DNA of 43,731 nt from Chloroflexota bacterium (GTDB taxonomy: Bacteria > Chloroflexota > Limnocylindria > Limnocylindrales > CSP1-4). Position 1 is the stretch's first letter. Each line of letters starts with the position of its first letter. Where the stretch lies: contig JAUJNA010000006.1 in the NCBI GenBank assembly GCA_030446555.1, forward strand, positions 63,901 through 107,631. The letters run 5' to 3'. A program made the position numbers and the translations under genes. Of the stretch, positions 41,024 through 43,731 are shown one piece after another. The notes under the pieces were generated by a model. It did no database searches and was not told the origin of the DNA. It was given only the letters and a program-made list of their open reading frames with translations.

Positions 41024-41290
41024 CTATGGTCGGAGGTGCTGTGGCGCGTACGGCAGGAGCGCCACGTGCCGCGCGCGCTTCAGCGCGATCGAGAGCGCGC
41101 GCTGGTGTTCCGCACAGGTGCCCGTCTTCCGTCGCGGCTCGATCTTCGCCCGCTCCGAGAGGTAGCGGCGCAGGCGGTTGACCTCCTTGTAATCGATCGC
41201 CGCCGACTTGTCGGCGCAGAAGGCGCACACCTTGCGGCGACGCCGGTCGCGGTAGAAATCGTCGCGCCGTCGCGCACGGGGGGAAGGCAT
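41024..41290 (-). CDS. rpsR: 30S ribosomal protein S18
   Basis: S18 binds S6 on the 30S platform. The 88-residue basic protein has [38 protein letters not shown] and [20 protein letters not shown]. The CxxC and a later Cys suggest a zinc-binding form. The ATG at 41290 follows a GAGGA at 7 nt spacing. It ends the rpsF-ssb-rpsR operon; rplI, often next, is not present here. Confidence 0.96.
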
Positions 41291-41304
41291 CGGAGGGTCC
41301 TCGT

Positions 41305-41754
41305 CTAGAAGGGCAGGTCGTCGTATTCATCGCCGCCCGGCGCGGCGGGACGCTGCGCAGGACCGGCGGTCGATGGGGTCGCGAAGCGGTCGTCGCTCGG
41401 GGTGGGGAAGTCGCCGTCCTCCCGCTCGCGGCGCTCCAGCGAGGTGACCTGGTTGGCGATCAGCTCGGTCGTGTACCGCTTCTGGCCGCTCTGGTCCTCC
41501 CACTGGCGCGTCTGGATGCGGCCCTCGATGTACACCTTGTTGCCCTTGCGCAGCCGTTCCGCCGTCCGCTCACCCAGCGGGCCCCAGGCCACGACCCGGA
41601 ACCACTCGGTCTCCTCCTGCCACTCATCGTTCTGGCCCTTCCACCGTCGGTTGGTGGCCACCGTGAACTGGGTGACGGCCTGTCCGCTGGGCGTGTATCG
41701 CATCTCGGGGTCACGTCCGAGGTTGCCGATGATCATGCACTTGTTGAGCGACAC
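41305..41754 (-). CDS. ssb: single-stranded DNA-binding protein
   Basis: The 149-residue protein has an OB fold starting [22 protein letters not shown], then [20 protein letters not shown] and [18 protein letters not shown] glycine- and proline-rich linker follows, with the acidic tip DEYDDLPF that recruits partner proteins. A GGAGGT lies 6 nt before the GTG at 41754. It sits between rpsF and rpsR as in most bacteria. Confidence 0.96.
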
Positions 41755-41781
41755 GGCTCGACCTCCGATGCCTGCGGCGGG

Positions 41782-42210
41782 CTATTCGATGGCGGCCGGA
41801 GCGGCTTCGCTCTCCGACTCGTCGATGATCTCTCCCTCGGAGGGAGCCTCCTCCTCGTCCGGCGGCACGATGTCGGCCCCCTCGGCTTCGGCGTCGGAGG
41901 CGGCGGCCCGGCGCGTGGCGGTCGGGCGCTCGACACGGGTCACCAGGTGGCGCATCACCTCTTCCGTGATGTTGAGTCCACGCTCCAGCTCCAGGACGGC
42001 CTCGGACGGAGCGTCGAAGAGGACGATGTGATAGGACCCCTCGCGGTGCGCGCCGATGGGGTACGCCAAGCGGCGTCGGCCCCACGGGCTGACCTTGACG
42101 ATCTGACCCGAGCCCTGGGTGACGGATCGGGTGGCGCGATCCAGGAGGGCCTGGACGCGATCCTCGGCCACATCCGGCCGGATCACCAGCATCAGCTCAT
42201 AACGACGCAC
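41782..42210 (-). CDS. rpsF: 30S ribosomal protein S6
   Basis: S6 pairs with S18. From the GTG at 42210 the protein has 142 residues and starts VRRYELMLVIRPDVAEDRV. It then has WGRRRLAYPIGAHREGSYHIVLFDA and RHLVTRVERP. An acidic Glu/Ala-rich tail of about 40 residues follows, as in several S6 proteins. A GGAAGGAG lies about 10 nt before the GTG. The open frame reaches 42417 but only low-complexity sequence precedes the GTG. Confidence 0.95.
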   Translation of the reverse strand: MRRYELMLVIRPDVAEDRVQALLDRATRSVTQGSGQIVKVSPWGRRRLAYPIGAHREGSYHIVLFDAPSEAVLELERGLNITEEVMRHLVTRVERPTATRRAAASDAEAEGADIVPPDEEEAPSEGEIIDESESEAAPAAIE

Positions 42211-42301
42211 GTGCGCGGGACTCCTTCCAACGGGGATGGCCCCGCTCGTTCGGTCGCTGGAGGGCGACGGGTGAGACGGCGGGGCTGAAAGGGACCGCGT
42301 G

Positions 42302-42307
42302 AGTATA
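42302..42307 (-). promoter_or_regulatory. -10 box of the rpsF-ssb-rpsR operon
   Basis: TATACT on the minus strand at 42307-42302 predicts a start near 42295 and a leader of about 85 nt before rpsF. A leader of this length could hold an S6:S18 autoregulatory RNA, but I could not confirm its fold by eye. The rest of the 42211-42401 gap shows no gene. Confidence 0.5.
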
Positions 42308-42401
42308 GCCCTTCGAGCGACGGTCGGTGCCTGGGCAGCTATCGGGACACGGGGCCCGACACTTTGGGCCGAAGCGTCGACGCCGGTGGCTATCCGGTGG
42401 G

Positions 42402-43037
42402 TCAGTCGGGAATCCATCTCCGGGAGCGGGGATCGGGCTCGTCGCGCGCTCCCAGGAAGCCACCGAGCGTGGACGCGAGGGCGGGCAACGCGAGGCCAAG
42501 GAAGGCCGGGAAGGCCGCGTCCTTGATGCCCTGGAGGACCTGGCCCGGATCGACATCCGGTCGCGGTGAGCCAGCGGCACGGTACTGCTGGAACAGGTCA
42601 CCGGCAGCCCCCAGGATCCCGCCCACGCCCAGCCCGGCGAACAGGATCAGGAGCAACAGTCCGAGCGCCCAGACGAGGAACCCGTTCAGCGCGCCCCACA
42701 CCCGACCTCCGACAGCGGCCGATCGACCGGCGATGAGGCCACCGATGAAGAACGCGAGGAGGCCGATCACGGCAGTGATGATGCCGCCGGTCGCCGCCGC
42801 ATCGTCCGCGTTCGGGTCCCCGACTCGCACGCCCTGCAAGCCGAGGGCCACGAGAAGGACGCTCGCGAGGATGAAGATGCCCAGCGCCGTGAGAAGTCCC
42901 GCCACGATGGGACCCCAGCGGACGCGATCGCGCGGGTTGACGAGGTTGGTCTCCTGGACGACGTCGCCTCGGGTGGGCGGCGCGGCGGCATAGCGGGGCT
43001 CGTCGGTGATGATCGTGTCTTCCGTGCGCTCCGTCAT
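42402..43037 (-). CDS. multi-pass membrane protein of unknown function
   Basis: I do not recognise a named family. The 211-residue protein has a polar N-terminus of about 40 residues and then four hydrophobic segments: GPIVAGLLTALGIFILASVL, GIITAVIGLLAFFIGGLIAG, WALGLLLLILFAGLGVGGI and FLGLALPALASTLGGFLGA. Gly and Ala dominate the helices, and the arrangement resembles small integral proteins with glycine-zipper-like segments. An AAGGG lies 6 nt before the ATG at 43037, which is why it is preferred to the ATG at 43043. Its own transcript probably starts in the gap to the right. Confidence 0.75.
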   Translation of the reverse strand: MTERTEDTIITDEPRYAAAPPTRGDVVQETNLVNPRDRVRWGPIVAGLLTALGIFILASVLLVALGLQGVRVGDPNADDAAATGGIITAVIGLLAFFIGGLIAGRSAAVGGRVWGALNGFLVWALGLLLLILFAGLGVGGILGAAGDLFQQYRAAGSPRPDVDPGQVLQGIKDAAFPAFLGLALPALASTLGGFLGARDEPDPRSRRWIPD

Positions 43038-43199
43038 CGGCATCCCTTCCGTTGCATCGTGGGCCCGCCTCGTCCCGCCTTCGCCGCGGATCGAGCCGCC
43101 ACGTGGAAGACGAGACTACGCGCCTGCGGTCACCGGCCGGGCGTCACCGGCCGCCGTGGCATTTCGGCCGCCTTTCAGCCGCTCCGACTCGGGTGCGAC

Positions 43200-43218: not shown

Positions 43219-43269
43219 TGCCAAAGCAGGGGCTCGAACCCTGACGCCCTTGCGGCAGCGGAGTTTAAG
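43219..43269 (-). pseudogene. 3' half of tRNA-Leu(UAA), 5' half absent
   Basis: From the anticodon loop CTTAAAC onward the minus strand has every part of a class II leucine tRNA: a TCCGC anticodon 3' stem, a long variable arm TGCCGCAAGGGCGT, a perfect T arm (CAGGG-TTCGAGC-CCCTG) and the acceptor 3' strand CTTTGGC with discriminator A. CCA is not encoded. The bases before the loop (CCTGAGG) do not pair with TCCGC. No D arm and no GCCAAAG acceptor 5' strand were found upstream within the window. Identity beginning exactly at the anticodon loop is the pattern left by integrases that recombine there, so this is read as an attachment-site remnant or a broken tRNA. Confidence 0.65.
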
Positions 43270-43394
43270 CCTCAGGCCGGGTGTCCGTCAGCGTCCGTCG
43301 GGTCCGGTCTCACGCTCAGTCAGCACATCCGGTCGAGCGTCTCACCGCCTGCGGCCGGGCGCGAAGCTACCGCGGGGCGCGACCCGCGGTCCGG

Positions 43395-43731
43395 TCAGGC
43401 CTTCGCGTACGTCTCCGCGCTCTCGAACTCGAAGGCGACGACGGGCTCGTCGCCAACGACCCACGCATCGTGCCCCGGTTCGATGACGTAGGCGTCACCC
43501 GGTCCCGCCTCACCCTCGGTGCCGCCGGTGTGGGAGACGTGGAGGCGGCCGCTCACGACCGCCCCGACGTGACGTGCCTGGCACGAGTCCGTGCCGACCA
43601 CGGGCTTGATCGCTTCAGACCAGCGCCACCCGGGCTGGAACGTGAATCGGGCCGCCGAGTCGGCGCCGAACCGCACGACCTCCACGCGGGTGCTCGGCGG
43701 CGTCCGGGTCTCATCGGGCGAATCGAACGAC
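43395..43731 (-). CDS. cupin-domain protein, 5' end outside the window
   Basis: The frame is open to the right edge; the visible 111 codons include SPDETRTPPSTRVEVVRFG, FTFQPGWRWSEAIKPVVGTD, ARHVGAVVSGRLHV and GPGDAYVIEPGHDAWVVGDE. These form a small single-domain cupin with His and Glu metal-ligand positions. Relatives are uncharacterised cupins found in many soil bacteria. A GTG at 43685 has been taken as a start, but similarity continues upstream of it, so the gene is treated as partial. It lies on the upstream side of the tRNA-Leu fragment, where an integrated element would be. Confidence 0.8.
   Translation of the reverse strand, partial: SFDSPDETRTPPSTRVEVVRFGADSAARFTFQPGWRWSEAIKPVVGTDSCQARHVGAVVSGRLHVSHTGGTEGEAGPGDAYVIEPGHDAWVVGDEPVVAFEFESAETYAKA

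Follow-up and report, generated by a model that had tools for sequence, protein, structure and literature searches.

Integrative islands, prophages and satellites that use tyrosine integrases and tRNA genes are mapped by Islander (PMC4383910). Such elements duplicate the 3' half of the tRNA gene, the intact gene lies beside the integrase, a displaced fragment marks the far end, and the crossover block starts in the anticodon loop. We believe that a leucine tRNA fragment in a Chloroflexota genome belongs to the same kind. It is very probably the attR core of a tyrosine-recombinase element in tRNA-Leu(UAA), a gene with the Cys-Gln-Gly-Phe tRNA cluster on one side and rpsF-ssb-rpsR on the other.

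The window, i.e., the whole stretch of 43,731 nucleotides that was analysed (C11:63901-107631), belongs to a 2.09-Mb bin that is 78% complete and comprises 21 scaffolds. The comparison set included 106 genomes of the same Chloroflexota family (107 with the source genome). The features of the locus are listed in Table 1.

Table 1. Features at and around the tRNA-Leu(UAA) fragment (window coordinates)
Feature	Position	Strand	Basis
rpsF, ssb, rpsR; flank downstream of tRNA-Leu(UAA) in relatives	41024..42417	-	Pfam S6 + S18; synteny
Membrane-protein ORF; flank left of the junction	42402..43043	-	ORF; no Pfam match
Displaced 3' half of tRNA-Leu(UAA), very probably the attR core (direct-repeat copy)	43219..43269	-	sequence, ARAGORN, homology, relatives' repeats
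Three CGGAC boxes at -19/-29/-38 from the core; putative right arm of the element, with repeats for integrase binding	43283-43287, 43293-43297, 43302-43306	-	CGRAC in other orphans; G107 junction match
GGTAGC box at -103; proposed outer arm-type site	43366..43371	-	GG[TC]AGC in other orphans
Cupin-domain protein gene, truncated at its 5' end by the assembly gap; probable cargo	43398..43731	-	Pfam Cupin_2

The orphan half and its native site

The minus strand of the fragment reads CTTAAACTCCGCTGCCGCAAGGGCGTCAGGGTTCGAGCCCCTGCTTTGGCA and contains the anticodon loop CTTAAAC, the 3' strand of the anticodon stem, the variable arm, the T arm, the 3' acceptor strand and the discriminator A. Within tRNA-Leu(UAA) it starts at C32, where the anticodon loop begins, and runs to the discriminator; the CCA that most relatives encode next is missing. 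The 54-bp half gave a 93% match (E = 2.4e-16) to tRNA-Leu(UAA) genes of relatives, and its position is syntenic with theirs, which places the fragment far beyond chance. A 3' half of this type occurs once in the assembly; among IMG/VR contigs, there was no exact match to it.

The rest of the gene was sought at several scales. ARAGORN called no tRNA in the window, and the D-arm/acceptor pattern had 4 matches there vs 3.8 expected, i.e., no 5' half above chance. In the surrounding 20 kb, GCCAAAG is confined to the fragment itself, read in reverse complement on the opposite strand; a pattern of the tRNA-Leu 5' half has 0 matches in the whole genome assembly. The earlier note, made from the sequence of the window, had called the fragment an orphan 3' half of tRNA-Leu(UAA), and this is right to the base. 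Its further statements, that the structure is intact from the anticodon loop to the discriminator and that the remainder is lacking upstream, are borne out by the minus-strand reading and by these searches.

The usual order in relatives is Phe-Gly-Gln-Cys-Leu(UAA)-...-rpsF-ssb-rpsR, and many of them have the Leu gene intact, directly downstream of tRNA-Cys and upstream of rpsF-ssb-rpsR. The fragment occupies this place, with the usual downstream flank (rpsF-ssb-rpsR) on the side away from the element; the departure from the expected order is that the tRNA 5' half is gone and a partial cupin gene and a gap are found instead. As judged by gene order, this shows the window locus to be the native tRNA-Leu(UAA) site. 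Among relatives, ssb/rpsR adjoin both empty sites and orphan halves. The membrane-protein ORF left of the junction was not found at the other fetched loci.

A scaffold gap of 100 N starts directly after the final base of the window. The sequence to the right of it opens with the 3' portion of a lipoprotein-like gene, which shares 44% identity with the gene that directly precedes the intact tRNA-Leu in G004, a genome of the same genus; tRNA-Cys, Gln, Gly and Phe follow, all on the minus strand. Thus, the ordinary chromosome resumes beyond the gap, and any surviving part of the element has to lie on the cupin side and in the gap itself, the only place where the intact tRNA predicted by the earlier note could be. 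The lipoprotein-like gene carries short PSIEIPSIPP repeats; at the right edge of the gap (L032:7732-7860) it begins in near-perfect tandem copies of them, which may be the cause of the assembly break. Elsewhere in this assembly, tRNA-Leu(UAG) starts a few bases past another 100-N gap (L085:465-570, G000:C2).

The same note had expected the intact tRNA-Leu(UAA) to the right of the fragment, with an integrase to be looked for there. Neither the intact gene nor an integrase at the tRNA-Leu(UAA) site was found in the source assembly, and the stretch beyond the gap carries the lipoprotein gene and the tRNA cluster described above. Considering that a gap is present at the expected place and that the bin is 78% complete, this absence is weak evidence against an element. 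We presume that the element body, the integrase and the intact tRNA-Leu(UAA) are located in the gap; the nominal size of the latter, just 100 N, counts against the element reading.

Junction repeats and the cupin gene

The distances of the boxes at the window junction were counted from TTAAACTCC. In the other orphan halves, CGRAC boxes are found at -19/-29, -21/-31 or -29/-39, as well as at -19 and -38 (G002) and at -29 and -60 (G112); CGRAC pairs at such spacing occur about 0.01 times per 70 bp in the background. The GGTAGC box of the window is a lone hexamer, weak alone; GG[TC]AGC is present at about -103 to -130 in most other orphans. In local alignments, the window's 140 bp gave a 26-column match with the G107 junction, above all 2228 random background stretches, and the matches with G112, G002 and G100 fell in the top 0.6%, 1.5% and 3.6% of the background, respectively. 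The alignments with G003 and G108 were not significant alone, and several of the compared junctions come from fragmented bins; both points count against the element reading. The CGRAC and GG[TC]AGC boxes are best read as the putative integrase-binding arms of one broad integrase group.

The product of the cupin gene matches Pfam Cupin_2 below the cut-off (E 1e-4). The protein family is commonplace, which counts against the element reading, and cupin paralogues occur elsewhere in the genomes of the family. Since no cupin gene is present at the tRNA-Leu(UAA) site of the fetched relatives, the gene is likely to be cargo of the element. To this extent the earlier claim that the element begins with the cupin gene can be retained as likely, short of proof.

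Insertions at the same tRNA in related genomes

The strict junction pattern matched in G002 and G033 only across the family; the tRNA 3' half was used as a query in the 107 genomes instead, and the sequence upstream of each match was inspected. Orphan halves were found in 11 of the 107 genomes (G000, G002, G003, G006, G033, G100, G101, G103, G107, G108 and G112), i.e., in the source genome and ten relatives, several of them adjoining the same flank as the window fragment. The orphan half of G103 sits behind a run of N. Matches L144, L147, L153, L155 and L160, at first labelled as orphans by the script, proved to be intact tRNAs whose D arm is of the GTGGCGAAAC type; they were left out of the count.

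An intact tRNA with an identical 3' half is found elsewhere in the genome in four relatives. In the four genomes with both copies, the orphan and the intact gene are identical over 55-59 bp; the repeat starts at C32 in three of the four pairs and, perhaps by chance, four bases before C32 in G033, and its end is at CCA or one to two bases past it. The identity within a genome is meaningful because 3' halves from different genomes differ by up to a quarter.

The complete arrangement can be seen in a relative with both ends of the element. In a contig of a Chloroflexi MAG (JANYJG010000147.1, L094), the series Phe-Gly-Gln-Cys-Leu(UAA) ends in an intact Leu gene, and a tyrosine integrase comes immediately after it; the other end in this genome has an orphan half that is 55/55 identical to the 3' half of the intact gene and is followed by rpsF-ssb-rpsR. 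This genome occurs in our searches twice (as G139 and, from identical contig coordinates, as G112). The island of G112/G139 seemingly has one long RHS-repeat gene, with its end and start on two facing contigs (L094:15165-16493 and L100).

The integrase of L094 is 90% identical to that of PLOC01000019.1 (G006:C84), and G098 has an intact tRNA-Leu(UAA) and then an integrase that shares 72% identity with that of G006. Overall, a tyrosine integrase lies beside the intact tRNA-Leu(UAA) in G112 and G098 and beside a 3' half in G006 and G103; the integrases (Pfam PF00589) of G006, G098 and G103 are also immediately downstream of the 3' half. The orphan of G006:C84 lies between arm repeats and the integrase, an arrangement that a circular attP or a tandem array would produce; the same contig has a terminase gene. 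G103:C85 has two 3' halves on one contig and, between them, an integrase-to-terminase element of roughly 10.3 kb, with genes for an integrase, an HTH protein, an AAA ATPase and a terminase-like protein.

Other tRNA genes of these genomes also have integrases as neighbours. At the right end of G000:C11 in the source genome (L034:14989-15942), near the contig end, tRNA-Leu(CAA) is directly followed by a tyrosine-integrase-like sequence, apparently frame-broken, with about 47% identity to the integrases found at tRNA-Leu(UAA); we regard it as another element at a leucine tRNA. In G008:C22 (L088:7075-8507), a related integrase is directly downstream of tRNA-Cys, with GGTAGCA repeats in between; it is part of an insert of about 34 kb that separates tRNA-Cys from an intact tRNA-Leu(UAA). 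Thus, tRNA-Cys, the neighbour of tRNA-Leu(UAA), is an integration target as well.

The interpretation of the fragment as an att site and its orientation (element on the right, native chromosome on the left), both put forward before this analysis, are well supported by the synteny, by the relative with both element ends visible and by the shared junction motifs. The following course of events is by far the most probable. The attP of the element would carry a copy of the tRNA 3' half from C32 to the 3' end, and a crossover inside this identity block would join the 5' half of the host gene to the 3' half brought in by the element. A working tRNA-Leu(UAA) would be restored at the upstream end, beside the integrase, and the host's own 3' half would be left as an orphan at the downstream end. 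The element side in the window would then extend from 43270 onward, with the arm-type repeats and then the cupin gene, and the remainder of the element, including the restored tRNA-Leu(UAA), would be in the unassembled gap.

Alternative explanations and known elements

One can suppose that the element has decayed or been deleted and only a dead scar is left, consisting of attR, the cupin gene and a tRNA-Leu(UAA) that is broken or lost. We consider this very unlikely. The absence of CCA from the sequence and what may be a C-to-T change in the acceptor strand do suggest a loss of constraint, but the attR copy is unconstrained even with an active element. Only a single codon among the 1264 leucine codons in the window genes is TTA; nevertheless, TTA is still in use, so tRNA-Leu(UAA) should be needed, if rarely, and intact copies are present in orphan-bearing relatives.

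tRNA-Leu(UAA) is the classic host of group I introns in cyanobacteria. A whole gene split by a large intron (e.g., of group I) in the anticodon loop, with its 5' exon in the gap, would agree with the position of the break, with the assembly lacking an uninterrupted copy and with a gap that could hide the 5' half. This is very unlikely, considering that the fragment retains C32-U33-U34 plus bases past the classic intron site and that, in relatives, the same junction is accompanied by a separate intact gene whose 3' half is identical. Moreover, Rfam at permissive thresholds found no group I intron or other RNA (for the group I intron, in the window or in the 7 kb around the fragment), no 5' exon was found in the assembly, and the cupin gene intervenes.

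A scaffolding or binning error that misplaced an unrelated end with a partial tRNA is extremely unlikely, although the window ends at an N gap of a metagenome bin and no intact copy is available, since the fragment is 460 bp from the gap, inside contiguous sequence continuous with rpsF-ssb-rpsR, and independent bins have the same junction type at the same place. It is equally hard to believe in an organism without an intact tRNA-Leu(UAA), in which the tRNA broken by the insertion is expressed split or the TTA codon is almost abandoned.

With the fragment taken as the attR core of an integrated element, the integration mechanism is a textbook one, and the junction is that of an ordinary tRNA-targeted island; what is new is that such insertions recur at one hotspot of an uncultured group. 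The tRNA-Leu(UAA) locus, flanked by the Cys tRNA cluster and rpsF, has been hit by insertions repeatedly in this Chloroflexota family, and some of its genomes carry integrases or phage terminase genes at tRNA-Leu(UAA). The hotspot provides a precise address for finding the integrative phages or satellites of these hosts.

Compared with the Islander-type systems (PMC4383910), the mechanism is no different; the differences are the host, an uncultured Chloroflexota family, and the unassembled element body. The closest counterparts are the elements of the same family at tRNA-Leu(UAA) (G112/JANYJG010000147.1, G006/PLOC01000019.1, G098 and G103), which have the same tRNA and similar junction repeats; the G112 element also shares the chromosomal site of the window junction. 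The cargo differs: G112 has an RHS-repeat gene, G006 and G103 have terminase genes, and the window has the cupin gene as its probable cargo.
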